A DNA stretch of 64,000 bases from NCBI RefSeq assembly GCF_029581395.1, contig NZ_CP121115.1, positions 186,001 to 250,000 on the forward strand. Reading direction: 5' to 3'. This DNA comes from Roseinatronobacter sp. S2. GTDB taxonomy: Bacteria; Pseudomonadota; Alphaproteobacteria; Rhodobacterales; Rhodobacteraceae. Of this stretch, positions 3,325 to 60,357 are shown in pieces. Numbering within the stretch: the first letter of the stretch is position 1; every line of letters starts with the position of its first letter. The notes beneath the pieces were generated by a model that saw nothing but the letters and a program-made list of their open reading frames with translations, ran no database searches and was not told the origin of the DNA. The translations under genes were made by a program, and so were the position numbers.

Positions 3325-3846
3325 TTACGGTTCGGGAATTGCCGAAACCAGATCCTCAATGACATGCGACACAAGCTGCTGACGGCTGCTTAATTCGGAT
3401 TTCCGAAAGATCGACGACAATTGCGATTTGACGGTCGATTCTGTCGTGCCCCGCAGGCGCGCAATTTCGGCGTTCGAGAAGCCCTTGATCACCAGAATGG
3501 CGACATGGCGTTCGGTCGGTGTCAGTTTCCACACTTCAAACTGGCGGTCGACATAATCATAAAACTGGCCCGCCGCTGCCTGCAACTGGTCGTTGATGCG
3601 TGTGGCCCGCCGTGATCCGATGCTAAGCAATATGACGCTGCTGATAACCCCGAACAAAAGCCCGAAACTGGACAGGATTTCCAGCAATTCCTGAACTTCC
3701 CAAGGCACCCAAAGGAATTCGATCAGGAACAATTCTGACAGGATCTTGATAATAAAGAACCCGGCACTTGCAATTTGCACGAGCAGCACAAGAATAATTA
3801 TAACAACGACCTGCCAGCGGAAGCCATACATTACATACTGTCCCAC
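3325..3846 (-). CDS. Membrane-anchored LuxR-type transcriptional regulator
   Basis: 173 residues. Two hydrophobic helices (about 10-35 and 55-77) precede a short linker and a C-terminal LuxR/GerE DNA-binding domain (about 105-165) with the recognisable LTPTERHVAILVIKGFSNAEIA and TTESTVKSQLSSIFRKS. No receiver, autoinducer or PAS domain is present, so a sensory input, if any, would act through the membrane segments or a partner. It stands at the edge of the accessory region and may control the secreted-protein genes beyond it; that is inference from position only. The ATG start precedes the hydrophobic segment directly. Confidence 0.8.
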   Translation of the reverse strand: MGQYVMYGFRWQVVVIIILVLLVQIASAGFFIIKILSELFLIEFLWVPWEVQELLEILSSFGLLFGVISSVILLSIGSRRATRINDQLQAAAGQFYDYVDRQFEVWKLTPTERHVAILVIKGFSNAEIARLRGTTESTVKSQLSSIFRKSELSSRQQLVSHVIEDLVSAIPEP

Positions 3847-3867
3847 AAGTGACGAATGACGCTGTGC

Positions 3868-4266
3868 TCAGGGATTCGGAACAATCCTGATACCTCCAGA
3901 GTGATTTTCCAAAAGCTCTTCAATGGGAACGACAGGAATAACCTGTGGTGCAACCCCGTTTCGCGCGTAGGTTTCGACCACTGCATCGCGCAAAATGCGC
4001 CCATTCGCGCGGCTGACCACAACTTCGCGCTTGTGAACGTTGTTTTCTGCCCAAATCCTTAGCCTGTTCAACCACGTATTGGAGACTTCGACAATCGTAT
4101 AGCCACGTTGCTCCAGGGTCCGAAGAACTGCTGTGTAATGATTGCTTCCATCGCGACCAACAATGCGTTCGACATCCATGATACTTAGCCCACGCTGGGT
4201 TTCCCCGGCTGCTGTGGTTGCGCCAGCCAGAAATATCAACATCATCAGTGTGGAAAGATGCTTCAC
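3868..4266 (-). CDS. Secreted PepSY-like protein
   Basis: 132 residues with a cleavable signal peptide (MKHLSTLMMLIFLAGATTAAG). The mature part has a PepSY-like pattern: a helix with VLRTLEQRGYTIVEVS, a strand pair, and EVVVSRANGRILRDAV, resembling the reiyvdp-tGril core of PepSY domains. PepSY domains are thought to act as protease-inhibitory or accessory modules outside the cytoplasm. It sits 21 bp before the LuxR-type gene in the same direction, so the two may be cotranscribed. The family assignment rests on pattern only. Confidence 0.6.
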   Translation of the reverse strand: MKHLSTLMMLIFLAGATTAAGETQRGLSIMDVERIVGRDGSNHYTAVLRTLEQRGYTIVEVSNTWLNRLRIWAENNVHKREVVVSRANGRILRDAVVETYARNGVAPQVIPVVPIEELLENHSGGIRIVPNP

Positions 4267-4333
4267 TCAAGCCACTCCAGCGCAGGTAGGCAAGTCCGAC
4301 TGACCATATTCGACGCAGTCAAGGGACGCAAGC

Positions 4334-4921
4334 TCACGCTGCACGAAACCGCATAGTGCTATTGCCAACCGCGCTTTCGATAGCCAGTGCGACCGACACG
4401 CAATCGCATGGCAACCGCACGGATGCATCTGCGATAACCCCGCGGGCCATTGAAAAATCATGCCTTGCAAATGACCCGCTACCGATCACAACCGGCGTGT
4501 CAGGGAACTGCCGCCGGAAAGCGATAAGCGCCTCGACCGCGTCTGATGTGGTTCCAAGTGTGTCGATATCCAGCACCAACAGCGCCTTTTCATACTCGAA
4601 CCCTGCAATCGCACGCTCCGCATTTGCGAAGTTACCGACAGATACGATAGACATCGCGGGCGCCGCAATCCTGGAGACAAGCGAAAACAACGGGCGCGTC
4701 TTGCCTTCGACCACATAGATGCGGCGATCCTCGATCAGATGCGGCGCGACATAATCAAAGCTGACGGCAAACCCATGGGACCGGGCCCTGACCACGGTGC
4801 GCGGCTGGGGCGTGGGCGCCTTCACATACCCCAGACGTGCCAGCAGGCGGGACATCATCCCGGGGGCGGCTGTGCCGTTGCGGTATGCGCGGGGGCTGTA
4901 GGTGTCATGGAACAGGGTCAT
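4334..4921 (-). CDS. Receiver-like (CheY fold) protein, atypical
   Basis: 195 residues. The C-terminal part (about 85-190) follows a response-regulator alpha/beta pattern: MSIVSVGNFANAERAI, then KALLVLDIDTLG with an aspartate at the expected strand-3 end, then TPVVIGSGS at strand 4. The usual strand-5 lysine-proline (KP) is replaced by RLP, so phosphorylation-dependent signalling is doubtful. The first 60 residues are basic and unassigned. There is no output domain. It could pair with the LuxR-type protein encoded downstream on the same strand. The fold is inferred from sequence pattern. Confidence 0.5.
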   Translation of the reverse strand: MTLFHDTYSPRAYRNGTAAPGMMSRLLARLGYVKAPTPQPRTVVRARSHGFAVSFDYVAPHLIEDRRIYVVEGKTRPLFSLVSRIAAPAMSIVSVGNFANAERAIAGFEYEKALLVLDIDTLGTTSDAVEALIAFRRQFPDTPVVIGSGSFARHDFSMARGVIADASVRLPCDCVSVALAIESAVGNSTMRFRAA

Positions 4922-4951
4922 GCGTCACTCCGTATTATTGATGCGCTGGCG

Positions 4952-5185
4952 TCAGTCTTTGGAAAAAGCAAGAAACACCGTAAGCGCACCGGCAAGGTAG
5001 AACCCGCTGCCGCCGAATGCATAAGCAAGCAGGACCAGACCAAGGGAATGCCCCAACGCTAAGGCAGTTGCGGCGCTAAGGAATGCACCTGTAAGTGCAA
5101 ACAGGATCAGCACCAGAAAAACACGCCCGCGCAACGGTTGTTCGCGATGTTCAGGCTGTGTCTTATGCTCGGACAGTGTGATCAT
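4952..5185 (-). CDS. Small membrane protein, two predicted helices
   Basis: 77 residues from the ATG at 5185 (MITLSEHKTQ). The frame is open further upstream, but that extension is cysteine-rich and unlike a natural N-terminus. After a charged 25-residue N-terminus come two hydrophobic helices (about 27-47 and 52-72), and the protein ends FSKD. I do not recognise the family. It is the upstream member of a same-strand group with the receiver-like, PepSY-like and LuxR-type genes. Confidence 0.5.
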   Translation of the reverse strand: MITLSEHKTQPEHREQPLRGRVFLVLILFALTGAFLSAATALALGHSLGLVLLAYAFGGSGFYLAGALTVFLAFSKD

Positions 5186-5514
5186 GGTTGCACCCCACTT
5201 GGTTTTGACTGGCAGGCCATCGAACGGAAAACGCGGAAGACCTGATGTCCATACTGCTGGTGCACTGCCGCAAAGGAATACCCCGTTGGTATGATTGGGG
5301 TCTCGTAGCACTATAGTCAGGGGGGCATGGCGGATCTGTCCTGCACCAGCGGCAGGGCCCGCACACATGACGCAGCAACAAAACAATTCGGGGGCGGGAG
5401 CGTGGCACCCGAATGCCAGTATCACAGCGCCACGCCGCATAAGCGTGACGCATAGTCGCGTTCATTCGCATGTGCAAAAGCAGAAACTCTGTTCCTGCTT
5501 CTTCGCAGTATTCC
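5186..5514. other. Intergenic region, no gene seen
   Basis: About 330 bases separate the small membrane protein from the end of the secreted paralogue, both on the minus strand. The open frames here are arginine/cysteine-rich shadows without ribosome binding sites. It presumably carries the minus-strand promoter of the gene starting at 5185, but no convincing promoter pair was found. Confidence 0.4.
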
Positions 5515-6243
5515 CTAACGGGAAAGCGCCGCCTGAAGGCTGGCTTGCGTGGTGTTGATGACAATGCCCTGCGATGTGGCGCGCCCGCCCGCAGTTGTGT
5601 ATTCAACACAGCCACCGCCCGCAGCCGCGCCCGGATCGACCGAAACGCGCACGCGTGTCAGGTCAGTGCCGGTCACATATGCCCCCACAATAACGCCAAG
5701 ATAGGTGTTATTGGCATCCAGAACCGCAATGCCGTTCAACACGTCATAATTGCCCGCGCCAGAACATCTGCTGGCAGGTCTGCGCCGCTGTGTGACAGGG
5801 ATTACATTGATATCCAGAAAGGGCTGCCCCGGAATTGCGCCTGTTGGCGTGCCACCCGACGGCTGCCCCGGTGCCGGTGCACCCGGAGTGCCGGGGGCTG
5901 TGCTGTCCGTTGTCACACCCACCGATGCGAGGTTCCCTGAACCGCCAACATTGACATCCGCGTCAATGCTGCCGACGCTTGCATCGGCATCTACCAACCC
6001 GTCAGCACCGCCAACATCAGCGTTTGCAGATATACCTGACCCAACCTCCGCTTCGACACCGACAAGGCTGTCTCCTCCAACGCTGACACCCGCCGAAATA
6101 CCACCGACGCTGACCCCCAGACCCAGTTGCGCCTGCGCCCCTATCGGACACATAGCCGCCGTAAAAATAGCGGCTAATGCCGTGTTGCTGCACCATGTTC
6201 CACGGTGCGTTATGTGTGTTCTCTGACGCTTGATGACGTGCAT
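5515..6243 (-). CDS. Secreted protein with conserved two-cysteine C-terminal domain (paralogue A)
   Basis: 242 residues from the ATG at 6243, which has an AAGGA ribosome binding site about 8 bases upstream; the frame stays open to 6396 without such support. A signal peptide ends near GAQAQ (about residue 38). Residues 39-135 are a Gly/Val/Ser/Asp-rich region of alternating GVSVGG and DADV-like blocks. A Pro/Gly linker (about 125-155) leads to an 83-residue C-terminal domain starting at Cys160, with GNYDVLNG, GVIVGAY, RVRVSVDP, GGGCVEY (Cys212) and SQGIVINTT. By hand count, 55 of these 83 positions match the protein encoded at 7175-8029. Function unknown; extracellular or surface placement is inferred. 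Confidence 0.7.
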   Translation of the reverse strand: MHVIKRQRTHITHRGTWCSNTALAAIFTAAMCPIGAQAQLGLGVSVGGISAGVSVGGDSLVGVEAEVGSGISANADVGGADGLVDADASVGSIDADVNVGGSGNLASVGVTTDSTAPGTPGAPAPGQPSGGTPTGAIPGQPFLDINVIPVTQRRRPASRCSGAGNYDVLNGIAVLDANNTYLGVIVGAYVTGTDLTRVRVSVDPGAAAGGGCVEYTTAGGRATSQGIVINTTQASLQAALSR

Positions 6244-7174
6244 GTTTCTGATCCTTGCTCGCTTAATGTGTCTGTGTGCTTGCTGCACCGGCGCTGGCGG
6301 GCCGTGGAAAAACACCAGAGTTACTCCTTGAACGGCAATGGCGCTGCTGCGACCATTTACATCAGACATACGCTGGCATTTGCAGCCCCGCGCCACTGAT
6401 CATCACTCGAACGACATAAAGACAGGCTATACTTGTCTTTCCGCACTAATGGACTAAGCCCGCCCAAGCATATGTTCGTCAATAGTATTTTCTGAATGTA
6501 TATTTATAGCGGTGTCATGAACGTTCGCATATTCTGACTTGCTTTCGTATGTTCATCATCGCACGGCCCATGGTAATCACCAGAGACAGGCGCCACATGT
6601 TCCAGTTCATCTGTGCGTGAACTTCGGGCCTATAGCCGCTTATCCGCACTCTTGGTGTATTGAGTATCTGCCAGTTGCGCAAAATCATACAAACATGCGG
6701 CGGGCATCCGCCTTGTCTGCATCGGTGCCGGAATTCCACTATGCCCGAGCCGGTGAAGGACAACTCAGCCAAATTCCAGCCCGATCATACACCAAAGGTC
6801 GAGCATTGCGCTGATTCCCGCCATCTACACCTTTTGCCACAACTTCACCCAACTTTCATACATTCATGGGTGGGTTGCAGCGCATACATGACTGTCAACT
6901 ACGTCGGGCACGCGCTGTTTATGAGCAGGGCCTGTCGTCTGTTGGTATGATACGCATACACCTTCAGTGCTAAGTATGTTTAATATCAACATGTTGCAGT
7001 GGAACCGCCCTTTGCTGAAATAACCAAACTGTGTATCCCTGTTATCAGGGGTGATCGCCGGAAGGCGCTAAGGAGCGTTCGGTTCAGGTGGCGTAACTGC
7101 GTTATCACGACACTCCTGTGTCAGCTTTCTGGCTAGTCAAAAATTCAGATTTAGGACGGATCGGGAGATCGAAC
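6244..7174. promoter_or_regulatory. Long divergent intergenic region between two paralogous secreted-protein genes
   Basis: About 930 bases with only weak, cysteine- and histidine-rich open frames and no ribosome binding sites, so I see no gene here. It is visibly more AT-rich than the flanks (for example 6470-6560 and 6950-7030). It must hold the divergent promoters of both paralogues. TGCTAAGTA near 6968 resembles CGCTAAGTA near 10144, upstream of the third secreted-protein gene, a possible shared control element. A small RNA cannot be excluded. Confidence 0.4.
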
Positions 7175-8029
7175 ATGCTAAGTAAATTCTCAATAGTTAG
7201 GGGCAAAATGTCCAGCCCCCCGCGCCGGTATTGGATTGGTGTGGCAGCCCTGCTTGGCGCAACAGCGCTGATCCAGCCGGCACATGCGCAACTTGGTGGC
7301 TTGCTTGGTGGCGTTACCAGCACCGTTGATAGCGTTGTCGACACTGTCGGTGACGTGACCAGCGGGCTGACCGGCGGCACAGTGACCGCTACGGGCACAG
7401 GTGAATCGACCGGGAACACTGTCGGCGTGTCAATCGGAATAGGTGGGACGAATGTAGATGCCACTGTCGCAGGGGATGATGGTCTTGCCACCGTCGGCGT
7501 CGGCACCAGCGGCACATCCGGCACCAGTGGCACGTCGGGCACCAGCGGCACGTCGGGCACCAGTGGGACGTCCGGTACCAGCGGCACGTCCGGTACCAGT
7601 GGCACGTCGGGGACCAGCGGCACGTCGGGCACTAGCGGCACGTCCGGTACCAGCGGCACGTCCGGTACCAGCGGCACATCGGGCACAAGCGGAACATCGG
7701 GCACAAGCGGAACATCATCAGGTTTTCCGAATGTGAATACCATTCCCAATGCCCCCAGAACCGCAGCCGGAAGCCGTTGCCCTTCTGCGGGGAATTATGA
7801 TGTGCTAAACGGTGTTTCGGTGTTTGACCGTGACAATAGCTTGATCGGCACAATTGTTGGCGCCTATACCAATGGTTCTGACCTGATGCGCGTGCGCGTT
7901 GCTGTCGATCCGCAGGTTGTCGCAGGCGGCGGATGTGTGGAATACCCGACATCCGGCGGGCGGGCATCCTCGCAGGGGATCGTCGTGAACACAACGCGCG
8001 CCGTACTTACTTCAGCGTTGATGCGCTGA
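7175..8029 (+). CDS. Secreted protein with Gly-Thr-Ser repeat and two-cysteine C-terminal domain (paralogue B)
   Basis: 284 residues from the ATG at 7175 (GGGAGA six bases upstream); ATG 7208 is an alternative that gives a tighter signal peptide. The signal peptide ends at HAQ. Residues 40-75 contain LGGLLGGV and VDTVGDVTSGLTGG, which resemble the repeats of the protein at 9383-10072. Residues 110-181 are 24 uninterrupted GTS triplets. The 83-residue C-terminal domain runs from Cys202 to the end, with Cys254 in GGGCVEY, and matches paralogue A at about two thirds of positions. It likely forms an extended stalk carrying a disulfide-closed head, but the function is unknown. It is followed by a hairpin and the methyltransferase-like gene. 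Confidence 0.72.
   Translation: MLSKFSIVRGKMSSPPRRYWIGVAALLGATALIQPAHAQLGGLLGGVTSTVDSVVDTVGDVTSGLTGGTVTATGTGESTGNTVGVSIGIGGTNVDATVAGDDGLATVGVGTSGTSGTSGTSGTSGTSGTSGTSGTSGTSGTSGTSGTSGTSGTSGTSGTSGTSGTSGTSGTSGTSGTSGTSSGFPNVNTIPNAPRTAAGSRCPSAGNYDVLNGVSVFDRDNSLIGTIVGAYTNGSDLMRVRVAVDPQVVAGGGCVEYPTSGGRASSQGIVVNTTRAVLTSALMR
7502..7717 (+). repeat. In-frame 9-bp repeat tract encoding 24 Gly-Thr-Ser units
   Basis: 216 bases of GGC-ACC-AGC / GGC-ACG-TCC type codons, mostly as an 18-bp pair, giving 24 GTS triplets with no interruption. Third positions vary, so selection on the protein is likely. The tract can change length in 9- or 18-bp steps without losing frame. Confidence 0.95.
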
Positions 8030-8042
8030 GCATGCAAAGATA

Positions 8043-8069
8043 TCGGTCCGGTTGAAAACACCGGACCGA
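8043..8069 (+). terminator. Perfect hairpin between paralogue B and the methyltransferase-like gene
   Basis: TCGGTCCGGT, a 7-base loop, then ACCGGACCGA: a perfect 10-bp stem starting 14 bases after the stop of the secreted protein and ending 9 bases before the next ATG. There is no T-run, so it may be a partial terminator, an mRNA-stabilising end or a translation brake on the downstream gene. It leaves little room for a normal ribosome binding site. Confidence 0.6.
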
Positions 8070-8077
8070 CATTCATC

Positions 8078-9358
8078 ATGCCACCCAGCGCACACAGACA
8101 TTTCGGGGACTCCCCGCCTGCCTTGACGGGTGTGATCGGTGTGCTGGCGCTGATAGGTATGGTGCTGGCATGGCCGGTCAGTCTGAAATCCGGCACTATG
8201 CCGACTTTCTTGCTTTTCCTGACGCTTCTGTTTGTAGTGATGCTTGCCGCAGATTTTGGCGCTGGCGTCGCCCGTCAGATAGACTTTCGCCCCCGAAGGA
8301 CGCAGCGAATAGGGCGCACCGATTTGCAGCGTCTGGGCTATAAGGTTATCGGGTTATGCGCTGTTGTTGCCTTTTTGATTGGCTTTTATTCGATAGCCCC
8401 TATTTATAATGATATATGGTATCAAAGATTCCTTCAGCCAGCCTTCAGCTATCTGCCAGCAATTATTTTTGCCAGTCTGATCTACATCGTCGCAACTGAT
8501 ACCCTGCTTCAGGATCCTTATGATGGATTGTCTGATCTGGGACTGGCAATCTTGCGCGCAGAATATCCAGAAGACCGCCACCGGTTAAATAACTTTCTGG
8601 CGGCCATTCTGGTTAAGGCGTTTTTTCTACCGCTCATGTTCGGATTTGGTTACGATGACTGGATATACTTCCAGACCGTCGTTCCAGTATTCGATGACTT
8701 CCGCAGCCTTTTCGAATTCCTCTACAGGTTTCTGTTTTTCATTGATGTTGTTTTTGCCATTGTCGGATATGCCACAGCATCCAGACTATTGGGCAGCCAG
8801 GTCCGGCTGACAGAACACACATTCCGGGGCTGGGTGATGTGCGTTGTCTGCTATGCCCCGTTTTGGCAGGTGATTGGCCGGAATTACCTGCATTATGACA
8901 ATGACATTGTCTGGGGCACCGTCTTTGCCCATTCCCCGATTTTATATGCAATCTGGGGGACGCTGATTTTGGTCGTTATAACTGCATATGTCAGCGCTAC
9001 AGTCATGTTTGGTATACGCTTTTCCAACCTGACCTATCGCGGCACCATCTGGCGCGGGCCGTATGCGTTTGTTCGTCATCCTGCATATCTGTTCAAGATG
9101 ATGTCCTATGCAATGATAAGCCTGCCGTTTCTTGGGCATTCGACTTCTGAAATAGCGATGAATATGGCAGCTTTTTCTGGTCTTGGCGCAATTTATGCCG
9201 CGCGTGCCTGGCATGAGGAAAAATGCTGCAGCAGGGCGCGGGAGTACCGCTTGTATCGGCGGTACATGCAACGTTTCGGCCTGCTGGAGCGGCTGTTCAG
9301 AAGCATTTATCGCCGAAATGGCAAACAGCGCCCCGATGTCACTCGAAGCGCTGCCTGA
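8078..9358 (+). CDS. Polytopic membrane protein with ICMT/phospholipid-methyltransferase signature
   Basis: 426 residues with about nine or ten hydrophobic segments. The C-terminal part carries the hallmark of isoprenylcysteine carboxyl methyltransferase and related phospholipid methyltransferases: RGPYAFVRHPAY (GPY at 327-329), a helix, then HEEKCCSRAREYRLYRRY (about 379-396), which corresponds to the E...Y..Y S-adenosylmethionine-binding end. The N-terminal 250 residues are an unrelated multi-helix extension. Family members methylate a lipid or a membrane-embedded group at the membrane face; the substrate here is unknown. It is likely cotranscribed with the GTS-repeat protein and convergent with the repeat protein at 9383. 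Confidence 0.7.
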   Translation: MPPSAHRHFGDSPPALTGVIGVLALIGMVLAWPVSLKSGTMPTFLLFLTLLFVVMLAADFGAGVARQIDFRPRRTQRIGRTDLQRLGYKVIGLCAVVAFLIGFYSIAPIYNDIWYQRFLQPAFSYLPAIIFASLIYIVATDTLLQDPYDGLSDLGLAILRAEYPEDRHRLNNFLAAILVKAFFLPLMFGFGYDDWIYFQTVVPVFDDFRSLFEFLYRFLFFIDVVFAIVGYATASRLLGSQVRLTEHTFRGWVMCVVCYAPFWQVIGRNYLHYDNDIVWGTVFAHSPILYAIWGTLILVVITAYVSATVMFGIRFSNLTYRGTIWRGPYAFVRHPAYLFKMMSYAMISLPFLGHSTSEIAMNMAAFSGLGAIYAARAWHEEKCCSRAREYRLYRRYMQRFGLLERLFRSIYRRNGKQRPDVTRSAA

Positions 9359-9382
9359 CCAAATTCTTCGCAGTAGCGGGTC

Positions 9383-10072
9383 TTAGTTCAGCAGACCGCC
9401 GGTCAGCCCACCTGTCAGCCCGCCAACGGTATCAACAACCCCGCCGACAAGATCACCAGACCCGCCGCCGTTATCACCGCCGCCAAGCAAACCACCTGTC
9501 AGCCCGCCAACAGTATCAACAACCCCGCCAACCAGATCGCCAGACCCGCCGCCGTTATCACCGCCGCCAAGCAAACCACCTGTCAGCCCGCCAACAGTAT
9601 CAACAACTCCACCGACAAGATCACCTGATCCGCCACCGTTGTCACCACCGCCGGTCAAACCACCTGTCAGCCCACCGACTGTTTCAACAAGGCCGCCAAC
9701 CAGATCACCATCGCCGCCGCCAATGCCGTCACCCAGCAAGCCGCCAAGGTCCAGCGTTCCCAGCAGGTCATCAAGATCAATCAGATCATTGCCGCCCACT
9801 TTCACATCCGCAATCACCTGACCCGCGTCAGTCGGTGTATCCAGAACATTCGCGCTGATCAATGGATCGGCGTTTTCCGACGAAATCAACGTCGATCCAA
9901 GCAGCCCGACCTCTGCCAGCCCGTCCATAGGGATGCCCGTCTCGCCAACCAGCGGCAGACCCGCACCATTACCAAGGTCCACCGTGCCAAGTACATCATT
10001 CAGATCAAGGGCAAAAGCCGGTGAGGAAACACTTACGGCCGCAACCATAGCGAGCATCATTTTCTTACGCAT
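9383..10072 (-). CDS. Secreted glycine-rich tandem-repeat protein
   Basis: 229 residues with a clear signal peptide ending SPAFA and a good ribosome binding site (TAGGAG) before the ATG. Residues 22-120 are an acidic Leu/Asp/Gly region with LNDVLGTVDLG and LDDLLGTLDLGG. The C-terminal half is about three and a half copies of a 28-residue unit built on GDLVGGVVDTVGGLTGGL and a GGGDNGGGS spacer. It resembles the N-terminal part of the GTS protein (VDTVGDVTSGLTGG). There is no recognisable domain, so a structural or adhesive surface role is only inferred. It lacks the two-cysteine domain of its neighbours. Confidence 0.72.
   Translation of the reverse strand: MRKKMMLAMVAAVSVSSPAFALDLNDVLGTVDLGNGAGLPLVGETGIPMDGLAEVGLLGSTLISSENADPLISANVLDTPTDAGQVIADVKVGGNDLIDLDDLLGTLDLGGLLGDGIGGGDGDLVGGLVETVGGLTGGLTGGGDNGGGSGDLVGGVVDTVGGLTGGLLGGGDNGGGSGDLVGGVVDTVGGLTGGLLGGGDNGGGSGDLVGGVVDTVGGLTGGLTGGLLN
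9411..9746 (-). repeat. 84-bp coding tandem repeat, about 3.5 units
   Basis: Units begin at 9411, 9495, 9579 and 9663 with CCTGTCAGCCC(G/A)CC, an exact 84-bp spacing. The middle units are nearly identical at DNA level and the fourth diverges in its second half. The tract encodes the 28-residue units of the secreted repeat protein and could expand or contract in frame. Confidence 0.92.
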
Positions 10073-10468
10073 AGCGCGCTCCTAATTTCAGTTTCAATTT
10101 CATCGCGACAGTCAGGGGCCGTAGCCAGATTGTGACAATGATGCGCTAAGTACTAAACAGGTTGGGCCAAGCGGCATATCACCCGACAGACCTATCCCTT
10201 TACACCTTTAGTCGGATGCGGCCCGTGCGCCGCAAAAGGGGCATGGTTTAACGGCTTTGGTGATTTCAGTCTAAGGCCCTGCCCCGGCCGCACCACGCAT
10301 CCTGTGCCGTATCCGTTCTCAAATTGATGTTTTGTTGCGCGGCACTGGCCGGTGCAGGATGAAAATTTCAGCGCAGATCAAAAATTTTACCAATTGATAA
10401 ACTTTTAAGTCCGTGCTTTCCTGTCATTCCAGTTGACCGCCATTCTGCCAGCCACAAGGGGCCAGCCA
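10073..10468. other. Divergent intergenic region between the secreted repeat gene and preT
   Basis: About 396 bases without a convincing gene. It contains CGCTAAGTACTAAACAGG near 10144, just upstream of the repeat-protein gene, and the RutR-like box at 10386-10401. The AT-rich stretch 10370-10410 probably belongs to the preT promoter. Confidence 0.4.
10386..10401 (+). promoter_or_regulatory. RutR-like operator upstream of preT
   Basis: TTTACCAATTGATAAA matches the E. coli RutR consensus TTGACCANNTGGTCAA at 11 of 14 fixed positions and is a near-palindrome. It lies 67 bp before the preT ATG. The rutR gene is at the other end of preTA. Confidence 0.5.
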
Positions 10469-11812
10469 ATGACACACAGCACCACCACTCCCGGTATCGT
10501 CGCCGGCAGGTTGAATCCCGAAGATTATGCGCAGCATTTCGACGACCTTTATCCGGATTTTGACGCGCATGAAGCCATGGTTGCCGCAGACAGGTGCTAT
10601 TTCTGCCATGACGCGCCGTGCATCACTGCCTGCCCCACGGAAATCGACATTCCGCTGTTCATTCGCCAGATACAGGCGGGCCAGCCGGAAGCGGCGGCGC
10701 GCACCATCTTTGACCAGAACATCCTTGGCGGCATGTGCGCGCGGGTATGCCCGACTGAAACGCTGTGCGAAGGGGCTTGCGTGCGCGAAGCGGCCGAAGG
10801 CAAGCCTGTCGAGATCGGGCGGTTGCAGCGCTATGCCACGGAAACACTGATTGCGAAAAACTCCCACCCCTACACACGCGCGGCCCCGACCGGCAAACGC
10901 GTGGCCGTGGTGGGTGCGGGGCCTGCGGGGCTGGCCTGCGCACACCGGCTGGCGATGCATGGCCATGATGTCACCATTTTTGAACGGCGGGAAAAACCCG
11001 GCGGGCTGAATGAATATGGCATCGCGGCCTATAAGGCGGCGCACGGGTTTGCGCAGGCCGAAGTGGACTGGTTGCTGCAAATTGGTGGGGTCACGTTGCG
11101 GCAGGGCTGGACGCTGGGCCGCGATGGCACATTGGCCGATTTGCAGGAAATACATGATGCGGTGTTTCTGGGTATCGGCCTTGCCGGTGTGAATGCGCTG
11201 GGGCTGGACGGCGAAGATATACCAACTGCCCGCGATGCAGTGGATTTCATTGCCGAGTTGCGCCAGACGGATAATCTGGCCACATTGCCCATAGGCCGCC
11301 ATGTCGTCGTTATCGGTGGCGGCATGACTGCGGTTGACGCGGCAGTGCAATCGCGCCTGCTGGGGGCAGAGCATGTGACCATGGTGTACCGACGCGGGCG
11401 CGACGCGATGGGCGCGTCGGATTATGAGTTGAACCACGCCGCAAATGAAGGCGTGAAAATCATCACCAACGCCATGCCGATTGCAATTCACGCCAATGGC
11501 ACCCTGCGCGAGGTTGAATTTGCCTATACCCATGCGGGCGAGACGGGGCTGGAGCCCACTGGCGAAACCTTCCGCCTGCGCGCGGACCAGCTGTTCAAGG
11601 CCATCGGGCAAACGCTTGACGACGCGCCCGAAGGGCTGACACGCGACAAGCGCAAGATCGGCATTGACGGCACAGGGCGCGTATCGCGCGCGGGTGTCTG
11701 GGCGGGTGGCGATTGCACAGGCGGCGGCGAGGATCTGACCGTTACCGCAGTCGCGCAGGGCCGTGACGCGGCCGAAAGCATTCATGCAAGCCTGATGGGC
11801 AATGGTGCGTGA
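10469..11812 (+). CDS. preT: NAD-dependent dihydropyrimidine dehydrogenase subunit PreT
   Basis: Electron-transfer subunit of the enzyme that reduces uracil and thymine to their dihydro forms, the first step of reductive pyrimidine breakdown. 447 residues from the ATG at 10469, preceded by AAGGGG; the frame is open to an upstream TTG at 10433 with no support. The N-terminal iron-sulfur domain has Cys43/46/51/55 and Cys90/94/100/104. An FAD-binding GAGPAG (149-154) and an NAD(P)-binding GGGMTA (283-288) follow, as in the N-terminal half of mammalian DPD and in GltD-type proteins. preA follows after 27 bp. Confidence 0.94.
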   Translation: MTHSTTTPGIVAGRLNPEDYAQHFDDLYPDFDAHEAMVAADRCYFCHDAPCITACPTEIDIPLFIRQIQAGQPEAAARTIFDQNILGGMCARVCPTETLCEGACVREAAEGKPVEIGRLQRYATETLIAKNSHPYTRAAPTGKRVAVVGAGPAGLACAHRLAMHGHDVTIFERREKPGGLNEYGIAAYKAAHGFAQAEVDWLLQIGGVTLRQGWTLGRDGTLADLQEIHDAVFLGIGLAGVNALGLDGEDIPTARDAVDFIAELRQTDNLATLPIGRHVVVIGGGMTAVDAAVQSRLLGAEHVTMVYRRGRDAMGASDYELNHAANEGVKIITNAMPIAIHANGTLREVEFAYTHAGETGLEPTGETFRLRADQLFKAIGQTLDDAPEGLTRDKRKIGIDGTGRVSRAGVWAGGDCTGGGEDLTVTAVAQGRDAAESIHASLMGNGA

Positions 11813-11839
11813 TCCACGCACGCACAAGGAGTTAGCACA

Positions 11840-13141
11840 ATGGCAAACCTGACCACGAATTTCATCGGCATTAAATCCCCCAACCCCTACTGGCTGGCCT
11901 CTGCCCCGCCGACCGACAAGGCCTATAATGTGGAACGCGCCTTCAAGGCGGGTTGGGGCGGGGTTGTGTGGAAAACCCTGGGGTCCGAAGGGCCGCCCGT
12001 CGTCAATGTGAACGGCCCACGCTACGGGGCCATCTGGGGCGCGGACCGCCGCCTTCTGGGCCTGAACAATATCGAATTGATCACCGACCGCCCGCTGGAC
12101 GTAAACCTGCGCGAAATCAAGCAAGTGAAACGCGACTGGCCCGACCGGGCGCTTGTGGTGTCGCTGATGGTGCCCTGTGATGAGGAATCGTGGAAAGCCA
12201 TCCTGAAGCATGTCGAAGATACCGAAGCCGACGGGGTAGAGCTGAATTTCGGCTGCCCCCATGGCATGAGTGAACGCGGCATGGGTGCCGCCGTGGGCCA
12301 GGTGCCGGAATATATCGAAATGGTCACGCGCTGGGTAAAGCAGCATTCGCGCATGCCCTGCATTGTGAAACTGACGCCCAATATTGCCGATATCCGCAAA
12401 CCCGCCGAGGCCGCAAAACGTGGCGGCGCAGATGCGGTGTCACTGATCAACACCATCAATTCCATCACATCGGTCAATCTGGACACGTTCAGCCCCGAAC
12501 CCATGATTGACGGCAAGGGCGCGCATGGCGGCTATTGCGGGCCAGCAGTGAAACCCATTGCGCTGAACATGGTCGCGGAAATCGCACGGGATGCAGCAAC
12601 ACGCGGGTTGCCCATTTCCGGCATTGGCGGCGTGACAACATGGCGTGATGCTGCGGAATTTCTGACCCTTGGCGCAGGCAATGTGCAGGTGTGCACGGCG
12701 GCCATGACCTATGGGTTCGGCATCATCAAGGAACTGACAGCGGGCCTGTCGCATTACATGGACCAGAAGGGGTTTACATCTGTCGACCAACTGGTGGGCC
12801 GCGCGGTGCCCAATGTGACCGACTGGCAGTATCTGAACCTGAATTATGTCACCAAGGCAAAGATCGATCAGGAACTGTGCATCTCTTGTGGGCGGTGCTA
12901 TGCGGCGTGCGAAGACACATCGCATCAGGCAATTTCCATGTCACCCGACCGCAAGTTCGAAGTGATCGATGATGAATGCGTGGCGTGCAACCTGTGCATC
13001 AATGTCTGCCCCGTTGCCGATTGCATCACCATGGAGCAACTGCCCAAGGGTGCCACCGATCCGCGCACCGGCGATAAGGTGGGCGATTATGCGAACTGGA
13101 CCACCCATCCGAATAACCCGATGGCAAAAGCGGCTGAGTGA
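11840..13141 (+). CDS. preA: NAD-dependent dihydropyrimidine dehydrogenase subunit PreA
   Basis: Catalytic FMN subunit partnering PreT. 433 residues: a dihydroorotate-dehydrogenase-like barrel (about 5-310) with ELNFGCPHGMSERGMGAA, the family's active-site loop region, and a C-terminal ferredoxin domain with two 4Fe-4S motifs, Cys347/350/353/357 (CISCGRCYAAC) and Cys380/383/386/390 (CVACNLCINVC). The ribosome binding site AAGGAG precedes the ATG. It abuts the convergent rutR gene with no gap between the stop codons. Confidence 0.96.
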   Translation: MANLTTNFIGIKSPNPYWLASAPPTDKAYNVERAFKAGWGGVVWKTLGSEGPPVVNVNGPRYGAIWGADRRLLGLNNIELITDRPLDVNLREIKQVKRDWPDRALVVSLMVPCDEESWKAILKHVEDTEADGVELNFGCPHGMSERGMGAAVGQVPEYIEMVTRWVKQHSRMPCIVKLTPNIADIRKPAEAAKRGGADAVSLINTINSITSVNLDTFSPEPMIDGKGAHGGYCGPAVKPIALNMVAEIARDAATRGLPISGIGGVTTWRDAAEFLTLGAGNVQVCTAAMTYGFGIIKELTAGLSHYMDQKGFTSVDQLVGRAVPNVTDWQYLNLNYVTKAKIDQELCISCGRCYAACEDTSHQAISMSPDRKFEVIDDECVACNLCINVCPVADCITMEQLPKGATDPRTGDKVGDYANWTTHPNNPMAKAAE

Positions 13142-55659: not shown

Positions 55660-57561
55660 TCAGTTCCCTGCCCGCTCCAGCTGCGTCAGGATATACCGCG
55701 AATTCGACCAGTTGTTGACCGGGTTCGCATAGGGATTGTCCGCCGAAGGATATCCCGTCCAGTATCGTTCCGACATGACAGCAAAGACATTGTAGCTCAT
55801 CACCGGAATGATCGGCATTTCTTCGACCATCAGGCGCACGAATTCCAGTCCAAGCTCCAGATTGCGTGGATCGTCAAAGCCCGTGACACGCACTTCTTCA
55901 ATGATCCGGTCAAGTTCAGGGTGCTGCCAGCGCTGCCAGTTGCGCGCAGGCTGGATTTCGCCGGGGTCTGCCACATATTGCGAATGCCAGCTGTCCAGGA
56001 AATAGGACAGATCAGGGTGACCGCCCCATGTTTCCACACTCCACCAGATATAGCTGTCGTAATTCCCGGCATTGCGCTGGTCTGCATGGTCAGAGGCCAC
56101 GACAACATCGACCGCCACACCCGCCTGTGTCCAGTTCTGGGCGACCATTGTGCCAAGACGGTTGATCACGCCATCACCGGGGATCATCAGGGAAAACGCG
56201 AAGGGTTCGCCATTCGGCATGATCCAGTTATTGCCCTGACGGGTAAACCCCGCATTGGTCAGCAATTCGGTGGCCGCGTCAATGTCCTGGCGCCACCAGC
56301 CCTGACCAAACGCCGCGCGGATTTCCGCAGGATCACTTGGCACGGCATCGCCATATTGCGGGCGCACCATATCGGCAATGCCCAGCGTCAGGTCGGGATC
56401 ATAGGGCCGGATTACCGATGTGCCTGTATCAAGCTCGAACTCTGTCAGCCATTCGTTCATCGGGATGTGGTAATCCGTGGGGTGCGTCCCGGTTGGCGGG
56501 ATGGCGATGGCCGACATTGTCGCTGCACCACGATAGGACGCCATCGATATCGCGCGCCCGTCCAGCATCAGCGCCAGCGCCCAGCGGACATTGCGATCCT
56601 GAAACTTCTCGTTCTGGTGGTTGAAGATCACACTTGGAAGTGTCGGGTCCGGATGGGCGTAAGGAAAGCCCTCAAACCAGCCGCGCGCTGTCTCATCCTG
56701 CTGAACGATCGAAAACATGCCTTCGGGCGTCAGATCGTGGATCATATCCAGATTGCCGTTGCGCATCTCGATCAACCGGCGGTCTGTGGGGCCGCCGTCG
56801 CGGTAGATCACATATTGCGGGGCGGGTTCGCCAAATTCAGCCATGGCTGTGCGGTCCCAATCCTCGCGCTTTTCCCAGATATACCACGATCCGTTCGGGT
56901 CGTAGCTGTGCAGCGTATATGGCCCAAGCCCGACGGGCGGGTTGTTGTCGAAGGACAGCACGTCCTCGACATCCTCAAATATGTGCTTGGGCATGATCCA
57001 GGCCGCGTTCCAGCGCACCTTGAACACCGAATCAAACCGCGAATTGGGGGCCTGTAGCGTGAAATGGACGGTATAGTCATCAACCGCCTCGACGGTTTCA
57101 ACCTGCTGCGAGAACACGCCACTCCAGTTCATGCCGGGCGTGTCTGCCTGTTTTTCTACGGTGAAAACTACGTCATGCGCCGTGAATTCTACGCCATCAC
57201 TCCAGTACACACCGGGGCGCAGTTCTACCGTCATTTCCGTGTAATCATCATTGTAGATCGCAGGTCCGGTGGCCAGCGAATTATAGGTCACACCGTCGAT
57301 CCCTTCATTGGGGTCGATATACCAGAACGTGTCCATACTCAGCTGATGCAGCCCCGTGGTCCAGCCACCGCCCGCAGGCACCCAGATGTTGAACCACCCC
57401 GGATTTCGGATTGTGCCTTCGGGGTTTTGCAAGATCAGTGTCTGATCTCTCGGAATATCTTGCAGCGGTGGTGCTGCAGGTTCGTCTTGCGCCAGCACAG
57501 GTGTGCCAAGCAACGCAGCGGCAACGCCGGCGGACGCCAGAAACGCTTTCCAGTTACGCAT
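55660..57561 (-). CDS. Family 5 solute-binding protein of the Opp-type sugar transporter
   Basis: 633 residues from the second of two adjacent ATGs (57561), four to five bases from GGGAGGA; the first ATG is at 57564 and the frame opens to 57600. Signal peptide ends PVLAQ. SBP_bac_5 pattern: LRPGVYWSDGVEFTAHDVVFT, VGLGPYTLHSY and a long C-terminal lobe. It is longer than typical peptide-binding proteins (about 500-540), as in related binding proteins for oligosaccharides. It lies between GH51 and the Opp-type permeases. Confidence 0.9.
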   Translation of the reverse strand: MRNWKAFLASAGVAAALLGTPVLAQDEPAAPPLQDIPRDQTLILQNPEGTIRNPGWFNIWVPAGGGWTTGLHQLSMDTFWYIDPNEGIDGVTYNSLATGPAIYNDDYTEMTVELRPGVYWSDGVEFTAHDVVFTVEKQADTPGMNWSGVFSQQVETVEAVDDYTVHFTLQAPNSRFDSVFKVRWNAAWIMPKHIFEDVEDVLSFDNNPPVGLGPYTLHSYDPNGSWYIWEKREDWDRTAMAEFGEPAPQYVIYRDGGPTDRRLIEMRNGNLDMIHDLTPEGMFSIVQQDETARGWFEGFPYAHPDPTLPSVIFNHQNEKFQDRNVRWALALMLDGRAISMASYRGAATMSAIAIPPTGTHPTDYHIPMNEWLTEFELDTGTSVIRPYDPDLTLGIADMVRPQYGDAVPSDPAEIRAAFGQGWWRQDIDAATELLTNAGFTRQGNNWIMPNGEPFAFSLMIPGDGVINRLGTMVAQNWTQAGVAVDVVVASDHADQRNAGNYDSYIWWSVETWGGHPDLSYFLDSWHSQYVADPGEIQPARNWQRWQHPELDRIIEEVRVTGFDDPRNLELGLEFVRLMVEEMPIIPVMSYNVFAVMSERYWTGYPSADNPYANPVNNWSNSRYILTQLERAGN

Positions 57562-57651
57562 CATTTCCTCCCATTTTAATGGACGCCCCTCCGCATCCAT
57601 AGTGCAGTGTTACGTTCGATGGTTACTCTGTCAAATTATTTGGCGATATTC

Positions 57652-57712
57652 ACCCGATAATCTGATATGAAAAAACCTACGCTATTTTTACTGCTACCAG
57701 ACCCGATTATTG
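57652..57712. promoter_or_regulatory. ACCCGAT motif cluster upstream of the binding-protein gene
   Basis: ACCCGATAATC (57652-57662) and ACCCGATTATTG (57701-57712) on the plus strand, 49 bp apart. The second is identical over 12 bases to a minus-strand sequence at 59329-59340 in the GH51 promoter. A TTGACA (57634-57629, minus strand) lies between the first copy and the gene. Confidence 0.5.
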
Positions 57713-57736
57713 TGACATCGGGGCAAATAATTTTTA

Positions 57737-57775
57737 CCAAAACACCCCGCAAGCAGCTTGTTTCTGCCTGCGGGG
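57737..57775 (-). terminator. Terminator of the GH51 gene
   Basis: On the minus strand, CCCCGCAGGCAG, a 7-base loop, CTGCTTGCGGGG: a 12-bp stem with one wobble pair, followed by TGTTTTGG. It sits 10 bases after the arabinofuranosidase stop. Confidence 0.8.
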
Positions 57776-57785
57776 CGGACAAGAT

Positions 57786-59297
57786 TTACCGTCCCAGCCG
57801 GATCATCTGGTAGGAATAGGGTGCCAGCGCCGCTGTCAGCGTATCGCCATCAACTGCTGCACCCGCCCCTGCCTTCGGCGCAACCTCCTTCTGGTTGTCC
57901 GCGACATTTACCGCGCGCAGGTCATCATGTGTCATGACCTGATGGTCAATGACCTTCAGCCCGTCAAACCCTTGCAGGCTGATCGCAAGATCAACCGTTT
58001 CCGTGGCGTGGCGGTTGATTGCAAACACAGTCACCGTTCCGTCATCTTCATTATGGACGGCGGATACATCGGCAAAGGTCACGCCCTTGTAATTTTCGGT
58101 ATCATATGTCGGGCAATCGAAGGTCAGTTGCAGCGCCGTTCCCCGCCCGAAACGCGAGGCAAAATAATAGGGGTAGTAGATCGTCTGGCGCCAGGCATCC
58201 CCGCCTTTTTCGGTCATGATCGGCGCAATGACATTCACAAGCTGCGCGATGCAGGCAATTTTCACCACGTCGGAACGGCGGATAAACGTATTCAGAATCA
58301 GGCCAACCTGAAGCACATCCTCAAAGTTATAAATATCCTCCAGCAAGGCGGGCGCATGCGGCCAGCCCTGTTGCCCTTCAAGGATTTTGCGGTCCTGTTC
58401 GCGCGAATGATACCAGACATTCCATTCATCAAAGCAGATATAAATGTCCTTTTTCGAGCGCTTCTTGGCCTTGATAAAGTTGATCACACCCTGCACAGCA
58501 ACGATGTAATCATCAAGTTTATGGTTTAATGCCAGATAGTTGGCAGCATTGCCTTCGGGGTTACCAAAATACATGTGCAGTGAAATGTAATCGACAACAT
58601 CATAGGTGTGTTCCAGAACCGTCGCTTCCCATTGCGGGTAGGTCGGCATGTTGGAATGACTTGATCCGCACACGATCAGTTCCAGATCCTTGTCGAAGGC
58701 CCGCATGGCCTTGGCGGTTTCTGCGGCCAGTTTGCCGTATTCCACCGCGTCCTTATGGCCGATCTGCCAGGGGCCATCCATTTCATTGCCAAGGCACCAC
58801 ATCCGCACGTTCCACGGATCTTCGCGGCCATTGGCACGGCGCAGATCACTCCAGTAACTGCCGCCCGGATGGTTGACATATTCGACAAAATTGCGCGCTT
58901 CATCCAACCCGCGCGACCCAAGGTTCACCGCAAGCATCATCTGCGTATTGGTGCTGGCGCACCATTCGGCAAATTCGTGGATGCCCACCTCGTTGCTGTC
59001 CGACGTGTGCCACGCCAAATCCAGCCTGACGGGGCGGTTTTCTTTCGGCCCGATCCCGTCTTCCCAGTTATAGGCAGAAACAAAGTTGCCCCCCGGATAG
59101 CGCACGACCGGCACATCCAGCTCTTTCACCAGATCGATCACATCTTGCCGCATGCCGTTTTCATCGGCGGTCGGATGGTCCGGTTCATAAATGCCGGTAT
59201 AAATCGCCCGGCCCAAATGTTCGAGAAATGCCCCATACAGGCGGTCATCAATCTGCGCGACCTTGAACTGGCGATGCGCGATACCTGTGGCTTCCAT
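57786..59297 (-). CDS. abfA: Alpha-L-arabinofuranosidase, GH51
   Basis: Releases L-arabinose from arabino-oligosaccharides in the cytoplasm. 503 residues, typical GH51 length, no signal peptide. The acid/base glutamate is Glu172 in CLGNEMDGPW and the nucleophile Glu291 in ICFDEWNVWYHSR; VVRYPGGNFVSAYNWEDGIG and the C-terminal beta domain (DVSAVHNEDDGTVTVFAINR) are also as in characterised enzymes. The ribosome binding site is AAGGGGGG. An ArsR-like regulator precedes it, and the Opp-type importer follows. Confidence 0.96.
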   Translation of the reverse strand: MEATGIAHRQFKVAQIDDRLYGAFLEHLGRAIYTGIYEPDHPTADENGMRQDVIDLVKELDVPVVRYPGGNFVSAYNWEDGIGPKENRPVRLDLAWHTSDSNEVGIHEFAEWCASTNTQMMLAVNLGSRGLDEARNFVEYVNHPGGSYWSDLRRANGREDPWNVRMWCLGNEMDGPWQIGHKDAVEYGKLAAETAKAMRAFDKDLELIVCGSSHSNMPTYPQWEATVLEHTYDVVDYISLHMYFGNPEGNAANYLALNHKLDDYIVAVQGVINFIKAKKRSKKDIYICFDEWNVWYHSREQDRKILEGQQGWPHAPALLEDIYNFEDVLQVGLILNTFIRRSDVVKIACIAQLVNVIAPIMTEKGGDAWRQTIYYPYYFASRFGRGTALQLTFDCPTYDTENYKGVTFADVSAVHNEDDGTVTVFAINRHATETVDLAISLQGFDGLKVIDHQVMTHDDLRAVNVADNQKEVAPKAGAGAAVDGDTLTAALAPYSYQMIRLGR

Positions 59298-59326
59298 AAC
59301 TTCCCCCCTTATCGCCCCGAATAAAA

Positions 59327-59380
59327 CCCAATAATCGGGTGCATATCAGTTTTATGCGATACAAACAGAAGACCTGTCAA
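59327..59380 (-). promoter_or_regulatory. GH51 promoter with overlapping operator
   Basis: On the minus strand, TTGACA (59380-59375), an 18-base spacer, then CATAAA (59356-59351). The sequence ACCCGATTATTGGGT (59340-59326) lies just past the expected transcription start and is a short inverted repeat. It shares 12 bases with 57701-57712. A repressor bound here would block the promoter. Confidence 0.55.
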
Positions 59381-59427
59381 GAACTCTCTTGAAAGGTCGG
59401 GCGCGCAGGGGGGTTGGGGGGGGCGTG

Positions 59428-60357
59428 CTACGAGGCCGTTTCAAGCCGCATGACAATGTCCTGATCGTAATTGCCAAAACCGCGCCCGAAAATATTGATG
59501 CCACCCGGATGACGCGCATCATTGCTGATGCCCACGCGCAGACGTATCGAATGATGATCTGCCACATCCAGATCATCGAGGGTGACATCTGAAATCCGCA
59601 TCCCGTCGACAAACGTGCCCTGCCCGTTCACAGTGAAGGTCTTCAGCTTGCCATATTGCGAACCTTTCAGCTTCCACCAGTCGGGGGTGTAGACACCGCG
59701 CTTGTCACCGTAATCCCCCGGCGATGTCCATGTGCCCACTTCGGTGCTGTTCACCCAGACCGAAATATCCGAAGGCCAGTCCGCACTGGTTCCCGGCACT
59801 TCCGAACTAAGTTCCATCGAGAAGCTGACAGATTTAAGCGTGTCATGCATAAGGTTGACGTTATTGGGAAACTGATATTCGACATATCCGCGCGTGAACC
59901 AGATCAACCCCGCCCGCATGCGCCCCGGGTCCAGAAATGTTTCAGGCACATCCAGCAGCCCGATAATTCCGTCGGTGGTGCACAACCCGCAAGGTGCACT
60001 GACGGCGCAGCCCGTATACAGACCGATGGGCATCGCCACCTCGATTGCCGCTGTATCGACGGGCGCTTCCTCCGGTTTGAACGCGACAAGTATTTCATCA
60101 TAGACCATAAAACACATCTTCTGATTGCCCTTGCGCGCCTTATGCGTTTCGGTGCGCAACAGCCCCGCATCTTCCAGAATGGCAACATTCGATGACACGG
60201 TCGATTGCGGCAATGACAATGCTGTTGCAATGTCATTCACGTTCATTCCGCGTGATTTCTGGATAAGCTTCAGAATATTGACCCGCACATTCGATGCCAG
60301 CCCCTTCAGAACAGCCATGTCCTGCAACGGGTCGATCATGAGAAAATTACGTGCCAT
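59428..60357 (-). CDS. ArsR-like transcriptional regulator with large C-terminal domain
   Basis: 309 residues. N-terminal winged helix-turn-helix (about 10-80): LKGLASNVRVNILKLIQKS, MNVNDIATALSLPQSTVSSNVAILEDAGLL. The C-terminal 220 residues contain cysteines in GLYTGCAVSAPCGLC and a beta-rich part with SDISVWVNSTEVGTWTSPGDYGD that looks like a carbohydrate-binding jelly roll, so it may sense an arabinoside or another sugar. It is upstream of GH51 in the same direction. Confidence 0.82.
   Translation of the reverse strand: MARNFLMIDPLQDMAVLKGLASNVRVNILKLIQKSRGMNVNDIATALSLPQSTVSSNVAILEDAGLLRTETHKARKGNQKMCFMVYDEILVAFKPEEAPVDTAAIEVAMPIGLYTGCAVSAPCGLCTTDGIIGLLDVPETFLDPGRMRAGLIWFTRGYVEYQFPNNVNLMHDTLKSVSFSMELSSEVPGTSADWPSDISVWVNSTEVGTWTSPGDYGDKRGVYTPDWWKLKGSQYGKLKTFTVNGQGTFVDGMRISDVTLDDLDVADHHSIRLRVGISNDARHPGGINIFGRGFGNYDQDIVMRLETAS

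Follow-up and report, generated by a model that had tools for sequence, protein, structure and literature searches.

Relation to described collagen-like systems

The closest systems described so far are the collagen-like proteins of Burkholderia. PMC10224339 describes five such proteins in B. cenocepacia, places the ICMT-like gene BCAM0694 next to BCAM0695 with a suggestion of lipidation (2023), and reports that two collagen-like genes are neighbours of a flp pilus operon. An efflux double mutant shows reduced levels of BCAM0695, a 'putative lipoprotein', along with increased levels of three flagellar genes (PMC3079749). Gly-Thr-Ser (GTS) repeats are reported for Bucl3 as well as for unrelated proteins from other Burkholderia (PMC4565658). 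Here we analyse a related locus in a 64,000-nucleotide stretch of a Roseinatronobacter-like genome (G000:C3:186001-250000, hereafter the window). An island of eight open reading frames (ORFs), named A to H, harbours there a secreted protein with a GTS array (F) followed by an ICMT-like membrane protein (G).

Like F, the Burkholderia collagen-like proteins with Collagen_mid (PF15984), e.g. BCAM0695, and the GTS-rich Bucl3 are exported and carry a (GTS)n array, and in many Burkholderia and Paraburkholderia loci a G-family gene directly follows the (GTS)n gene, as it does here. The window differs from these systems in the partner domain, which is PRC-barrel-like and not Collagen_mid (PF15984 gave no match in E or F up to an E-value of 1). 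It further has an exchangeable cassette, paralogous proteins without GTS repeats and, in linkage, a LuxR/PepSY-like/receiver-like unit. Otherwise, we found no description of a wider pairing of G and GTS proteins in listings of the open-licence literature. We moderately favour the reading that the locus is a regulated, modular island of secreted repeat proteins in which G modifies the array or prepares its modification. More tentatively, it might represent a post-translational modification system not recognized before, in which an ICMT-superfamily membrane enzyme serves Gly-Thr/Ser-Ser arrays in Alpha- and Betaproteobacteria, with allelic cassettes that swap repeat and enzyme as a unit behind a constant upstream region.

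G accompanies the Gly-Thr/Ser-Ser array and not the T domain

F (7175..8029, plus strand, 284 residues) contains 24 perfect GTS units, encoded by a tandem DNA array with periods of 18 and 72 bp (7498..7710, plus strand; Tandem Repeats Finder). Its C-terminal domain of ~95 residues, hereafter the T domain, is 63% identical to that of E (5515..6243, minus strand, 242 residues), a secreted protein whose longest G[TS]S run is 0; the starts of E (6243, the Met at which its relative in L219 begins) and F (7175) were set from those of relatives and not from the longest ORF. The two were thus rightly described as paralogous secreted proteins in a sequence-only reading of this DNA that preceded our analyses. 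G (8078..9358, plus strand, 426 residues) is encoded after F.

All seven T loci with a G gene have a G[TS]S run, of 16 to 42 units, whereas none of the 13 T loci devoid of G has a run above 1 (Fisher p 1.3e-5, kinship ignored). At the level of individual proteins, 8 of the 14 T proteins of the G-bearing loci have runs of 16 to 42 and the other 6 have runs of 0 or 1, while the 17 T proteins of the G-less loci all have runs of 0 or 1. As G itself led us to four of the seven G-bearing loci, the G status of these four, but not their array status, results from selection. The G-absent count does not include L196 and L197, whose weak T matches are doubtful or unrelated (G[TS]S runs of 0), or the T match of G360 (E 6e-4). 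The G-less loci have other repeats or none, the former including GTPGAPG (L133), GGSN (L145), GTPG (L191), DGS (L219), NGGG (L220) and NGG (L221). The array gene directly precedes G in six of the seven G loci, and in the remaining one (L129) another T gene intervenes. One genome harbours two T loci, of which one (L128) has both G and the array and the other (L191) neither. Within the T family, G is tied to the G[TS]S array and not to the T domain. The proposal that the ICMT-like gene co-occurs with an 83-residue domain did not survive this comparison, as T is found without G in 13 loci and G follows the array.

The pairing extends to distant G-family proteins

We also scanned genome contigs with the G alignment and analysed the best 80 of 560 confirmed matches plus loci from genome searches. 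ORFs rich in Gly, Ser and Thr (G+S+T 65% over 60 residues) were found within 1.5 kb upstream of G in 45 of 90 loci, the best 80 of 560 matches included. The corresponding count is 3 of 88 for the downstream flank and 1 of 70 for either side at a distance of 5-6.5 kb; these figures depend on the threshold and on loci chosen by similarity. Most of the 45 positives are from Burkholderia or Paraburkholderia and are not independent. Such a partner was found in 0 of 30 other ICMT-family loci of Rhodobacteraceae.

In Burkholderia and Paraburkholderia, the partner of G is mostly a (GTS)n protein, and the two that were tested with Pfam (L080 and L055) have Collagen_mid. G[TS]S runs of at least 8 are present in 30 of the 44 partners encoded on the same strand. 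Since the longest run is 1 to 4 in the other 14, part of the G family pairs with looser G/S/T-rich sequence. Ser/Gly-rich partners of another make occur in Ralstonia ASV6, Burkholderia lig30 and a metagenome-assembled genome (MAG) of Rhodospirillaceae, and the Taklimakanibacter partner has GGTS repeats. Paraburkholderia xenovorans LB400 has four Collagen_mid proteins, and GTS repeats (a run of 46 units) are confined to the one encoded beside G. This protein is also the only one of the 11 Collagen_mid proteins of our Burkholderiales sample, in which it is counted, to combine array and G. The four other Collagen_mid genomes above cut-off are without G; a match below cut-off (L206) was left out.

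In a tree of 69 G proteins, obtained by a quick method and with some long branches, the array label needs 10 changes, at least 7 of them forced by starred branches. The Rhodobacteraceae group (7/7 with arrays) and the Burkholderia group (9/9 of those sampled) lie well apart. Left out of this tree as near-copies were 22 of 91 loci, nearly all from Burkholderia or Paraburkholderia.

The pairing might also arise if G acted, in PEMT-like fashion, on a membrane lipid or lipid carrier for anchoring or export, the array being a spacer tolerated by that envelope state. Nevertheless, the domains of the partners differ (T domain, Collagen_mid and others) and only the repeat chemistry is common to them. 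Furthermore, array-less T paralogues are present in the same cells, and also where G is absent. We consider this alternative somewhat unlikely. As to an action of G on the array itself, two observations speak for caution: half of the tested G-family loci have no G/S/T-rich partner, and one genome without G (L205) has GST-phase repeats, such that similar repeats are possible in the absence of the enzyme.

Other settings of G-family genes were noted along the way. In Neomegalonema (L083:1794-3011), the G-family ORF overlaps by a few bases that of a membrane protein, which matches EAL weakly (E 2e-5, below cut-off), and by eye the same arrangement is found in L047, L050, L062 and L075; a link of this other G branch with cyclic di-GMP is possible. 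In two Burkholderiales MAGs, a PEP-CTERM-type exported protein is encoded just before the G-family gene (L031:196-978, by Pfam; L086:3452-4189, by eye). In Microbulbifer, the G-family gene comes after that of a secreted protein with a G/S/T-rich stretch (L025, and L039 by eye), which in L025 has GH18 and a chitin-binding-type module by Pfam. Linker-rich secreted enzymes may thus also be among the partners of G.

F, G and H differ as a block from a congener locus

A congener offers a comparison at the same chromosomal site. Its locus (L219) comprises A to F followed directly by the same pyrimidine-type genes as in the window. It is devoid of G and H, and its F protein has Gly-Ser-Asp-type repeats. 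Overall, the two loci are 88% identical in DNA sequence on their left side and 95% on their right side. Identity amounts to 95-100% over positions 7020-7179, drops to about 40-80% from the start codon of F, and is 90-100% from about 10325. As identity falls at the start of F and recovers at about 10325, F, G and H differ as a single block (about 3.1 kb) that follows a constant upstream region, and we delineate the exchanged cassette as 7175..10315. Among the proteins encoded to the left of it, A is 99%, B 86%, C 90% and E 88% identical, while the two F proteins are 69% identical in the T domain (66/95) and 55% in the N-terminus (22/40). The window and L219 constitute a natural matched pair for testing the predicted modification.

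This block difference is compatible with joint transfer, and F, G and H might simply have been gained or lost as one cassette with no functional tie between G and the array. However, distant G clades whose partner domains are not homologous show the pairing as well, and inside a single genome the pairing picks out the GTS paralogue. Such hitch-hiking is in our view distinctly improbable.

H (9383..10072, minus strand, 229 residues) is an exported, Gly-rich protein with an 84-bp tandem repeat. It was found in 3 of 14 loci searched (the window, L005 and L129), adjoining G each time. Over short stretches, the H repeats and those in the DNA of the L219 F gene match at 67-75%, which may reflect repeat modules moving between genes of the island, or merely that both are Gly-rich.

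The array is conserved at the protein level

The 24 units of the window array are encoded by 14 distinct 9-mers, with zero amino-acid changes. Gly and Thr codons vary at third positions only, and about half of the unit pairs disagree at the first two positions of the Ser codons (AGY versus TCN). Ser codon switching was found in four of the nine arrays examined (the window, L005, L008 and L009), and in the all-GSS array of L129 it affects the middle residue. Swaps between Thr and Ser at the middle residue were detected in L008, L009, L128 and L040. The Burkholderia and Paraburkholderia arrays that we examined have more uniform codons, as after recent expansion. These codon patterns show that the peptide is conserved more than the DNA is.

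F matches the Pfam Collagen family (46.3 bits, for a cut-off of 27.2), with a long Gly-X-Y array. This array is without proline; collagen triple helices are normally proline-rich. We also considered F as a phage tail fibre and rejected that assignment, because the corresponding PHROGs matches are collagen-repeat matches.

G resembles the ICMT superfamily

G is a polytopic protein with seven hydrophobic segments, a C-terminal ICMT-type region and the family motifs KAFFLPLM, RFSNLTxRG, HPxY and RAxxEE. Its closest named relative is from R. alkalisoli (76% identity). The ICMT signature that had been proposed for G holds for the family more firmly than for the window protein. The latter scores 19.8 bits against PF04140 (cut-off 24) and 24.3 bits with its neighbours in the genome frame, while relatives exceed the cut-off (25.9 bits for L009 and 31.7 bits for L080). 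Comparison of folds gave ICMT as the best structural rows, with modest Z, and a Foldseek search of the Protein Data Bank (PDB) with G yielded no significant match. Two efflux pumps picked up by a PDB sequence search with the G profile were rejected (E 0.28 and 0.54).

G shares with the ICMT/Ste14 superfamily the residues of HPxY...EE, which we take to be those of the S-adenosylmethionine (SAM) site of ICMT. It differs in its size of about 430 residues, its long N-terminal membrane half, its KAFFLPLM and RFSNLTxRG motifs, and the lack of CaaX-type Cys in the tested partners. A true ICMT would methylate a prenylated or lipidated C-terminal Cys of the repeat protein and so aid its attachment to the membrane (compare the lipidation suggested for BCAM0695 in PMC10224339). 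In favour of such an activity, the H, P, Y, E and E residues are invariant in 31/31 G-family rows, ICMT leads the structural comparison, and PF04140 matches 23 of 31 members at E<=0.01. Nevertheless, 0 of the 44 same-strand partner proteins of G-family genes has a Cys among its last eight residues, and the T proteins have C-terminal tails like ALMR or ALSR. Prenylcysteine methylation of these 44 partners thus looks unlikely from their C-termini, and we regard true ICMT function as highly improbable. The earlier idea that the island has its own methyl or lipid modification is therefore strengthened as regards a dedicated modification, G being tied to the array, but not as regards the classical ICMT lipid kind, against which the partner C-termini speak.

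In the most likely scenario, an exported protein of the surface or of a matrix would undergo a modification linked to its array. G would be a polytopic, SAM-dependent methyltransferase of the inner membrane. It might modify the Ser/Thr-rich array during export. Alternatively, and more likely because SAM is cytoplasmic, it might methylate a lipid-linked precursor, e.g. of an O-glycan, that is later placed on the array. The exported proteins, with their signal peptide, glycine-rich repeats and PRC-barrel-like domain with two Cys residues, would be destined for the cell surface or a matrix. Their repeat region would be exchangeable between alleles, the Gly-Thr/Ser-Ser array coming with G. They may serve as a surface layer, adhesin or matrix, as the sequence-only reading had it. 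This model offers a concrete candidate function for part of an extensive ICMT-superfamily branch that has no assigned role, and links an unexplained bacterial GTS repeat to a dedicated enzyme. If it is true, some proteobacterial collagen-like proteins bear a modification that we have not found described in the open-licence literature.

The T domain is predicted to be PRC-barrel-like

Alignment of 25 T domains revealed two invariant Cys residues. In a Foldseek search with the T model, whose pLDDT is only 73.5, every one of the 50 matches listed is to a reaction-centre H subunit or a PRC-type protein (3htr, 8onw, 8qzo), with a probability of 1.00 and E-values from 8e-4 to 1.4e-2, one of them below 0.001. 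Both H subunits and CdpB carry PRC barrels. At the sequence level, PF05239 weakly matches 6 of the 25 T members (best E 0.0043), and the F domain of the window is not listed among them. The predicted fold of the T domain is thus similar to that of the PRC-barrel PF05239 (reaction-centre H subunit, 3htr), with weak Pfam matches. The T proteins differ from PRC-barrel proteins in that they are exported, have two conserved Cys residues and are joined to Gly-rich repeats.

A conserved module in Rhodobacteraceae

The eight unusual genes announced by the sequence-only reading are all present. Named by resemblance, uidA-, GntR- and uxuA-like genes flank the island on the left and pyrimidine-catabolism-type genes on the right (10433-13141). 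Between these uronate-type and pyrimidine-type genes, A to E are on the minus strand, F and G on the plus strand and H on the minus strand. In R. alkalisoli (L005), the whole A-H block is found with the same order and orientation between other genes, which argues that it is not a chance assembly.

A, B, C and T occur together in 12 loci of several Rhodobacteraceae genera, in differing settings. Seven of them include G: the window, L005, L007 (Frigidibacter sp.), L008 (Nioella nitratireducens), L009 (Rhodobacterales HKCCE4037), L128 (G263) and L129 (G382). The others (L133, L145, L219, L220 and L221) are devoid of it. We also identified partial loci, with T and A (L188), T, A and B (L189) or T alone (L190-L195). 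In a set of 394 Rhodobacteraceae genomes, the T profile is found in 14 and the G profile in 11, two of the latter being weak. T is missing from six of the nine strong-G genomes, whose G genes belong to other branches of the tree. Within the genus, T is found in 5 of 37 genomes, two of which have G (G000 and G018). Neither B nor T is present in 36 of 40 further loci that were fetched.

These might be ordinary, unlinked genes in a variable region, as proteins resembling B and C are common in the absence of the other components and only 5 of the 37 genomes of the genus have T. This is hardly credible in view of the 12 loci of several genera in which A, B, C and T are together. The proposal of one system, which unlinked genes with unrelated distributions in other genomes would have undermined, is sound for A, B, C and T; D and H were each found in 3 of 14 loci.

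In Nioella (L008:10007-12866), genes resembling those of Tad/Flp pilus ATPases by eye directly follow the module. C-like receiver proteins are also encoded apart from the module in many Rhodobacteraceae genomes, sometimes several per genome (L130-L132, L134-L144, L146-L147 and L154-L167).

Genes of the putative control unit

A (3325..3846, minus strand, 173 residues) is a LuxR-type regulator whose GerE helix-turn-helix domain scores 37.6 bits, above the Pfam cut-off of 23.5. Hydropathy analysis revealed two N-terminal hydrophobic segments (residues 3-49 and 53-79), consistent with the membrane-anchored LuxR regulator that had been proposed. Its best NCBIfam match is the LIC13292 family (E 4.9e-15), followed by CsgD (2.8e-6) and FimW (7e-4). 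The GerE domain is common to A and these proteins, but A has N-terminal membrane segments and scores far under the cut-offs of those models. A PADLOC match of A to CARF proteins was rejected, as it spans the helix-turn-helix only.

B (3868..4266, minus strand, 132 residues) is a small exported protein linked to A, C and T. No Pfam match to PepSY was found in five members of its family up to an E-value of 0.5. Its relative in R. monicus bears the UniRef name 'YpeB-like', which agrees with the earlier designation of B as PepSY-like.

C (4334..4921, minus strand, 195 residues) is an atypical receiver-like protein. It weakly matches NtrX in NCBIfam (E 0.036), and Pfam provided nothing informative. 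The C profile also picks frames of ~470-530 residues over ~80 positions (E about 1e-5), presumably response regulators, in line with the receiver-like character attributed to C. The alignment shows DID, Ser and (R/K)LP positions. Leu precedes the last proline, where receivers usually have Lys, and the acidic pair that receivers have on the first strand is not maintained, such that phosphorylation of C in the usual way appears doubtful.

D (4952..5185, minus strand, 77 residues; the start at 5185 is a chosen internal Met) is a small membrane protein with two hydrophobic segments, found in 3 of 14 loci searched (the window, L005 and L219), all from Roseinatronobacter. For B, D, E and H, searches of Pfam and NCBIfam were uninformative, and PHROGs and PADLOC found nothing for B, C, G and H.

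We propose that C, B and A may form a control unit acting on the paralogous exported proteins. A would act as a LuxR-type activator tethered to the membrane. B would be its PepSY/YpeB-like partner in the periplasm and may govern the stability or release of A, and C would be a receiver-like accessory for which the usual phosphorylation is unlikely.

Composition of the window

In the comparison with the flanks that the sequence-only reading had suggested, the island genes without F have a mildly low GC content of 0.553, compared with 0.599 for six flank genes. Rfam and tRNA scans of the window gave no match, and no inverted repeats were detected in the two stretches searched. Promoter-like sites number 7 for 4.9 expected, and terminator-like sites 3 for 7.9 expected. 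A second low-GC stretch is found at positions 56500-60000 of the window (3-kb windows from 0.537); by eye, it codes for a peptide-binding-type transporter protein and an arabinofuranosidase-like protein.

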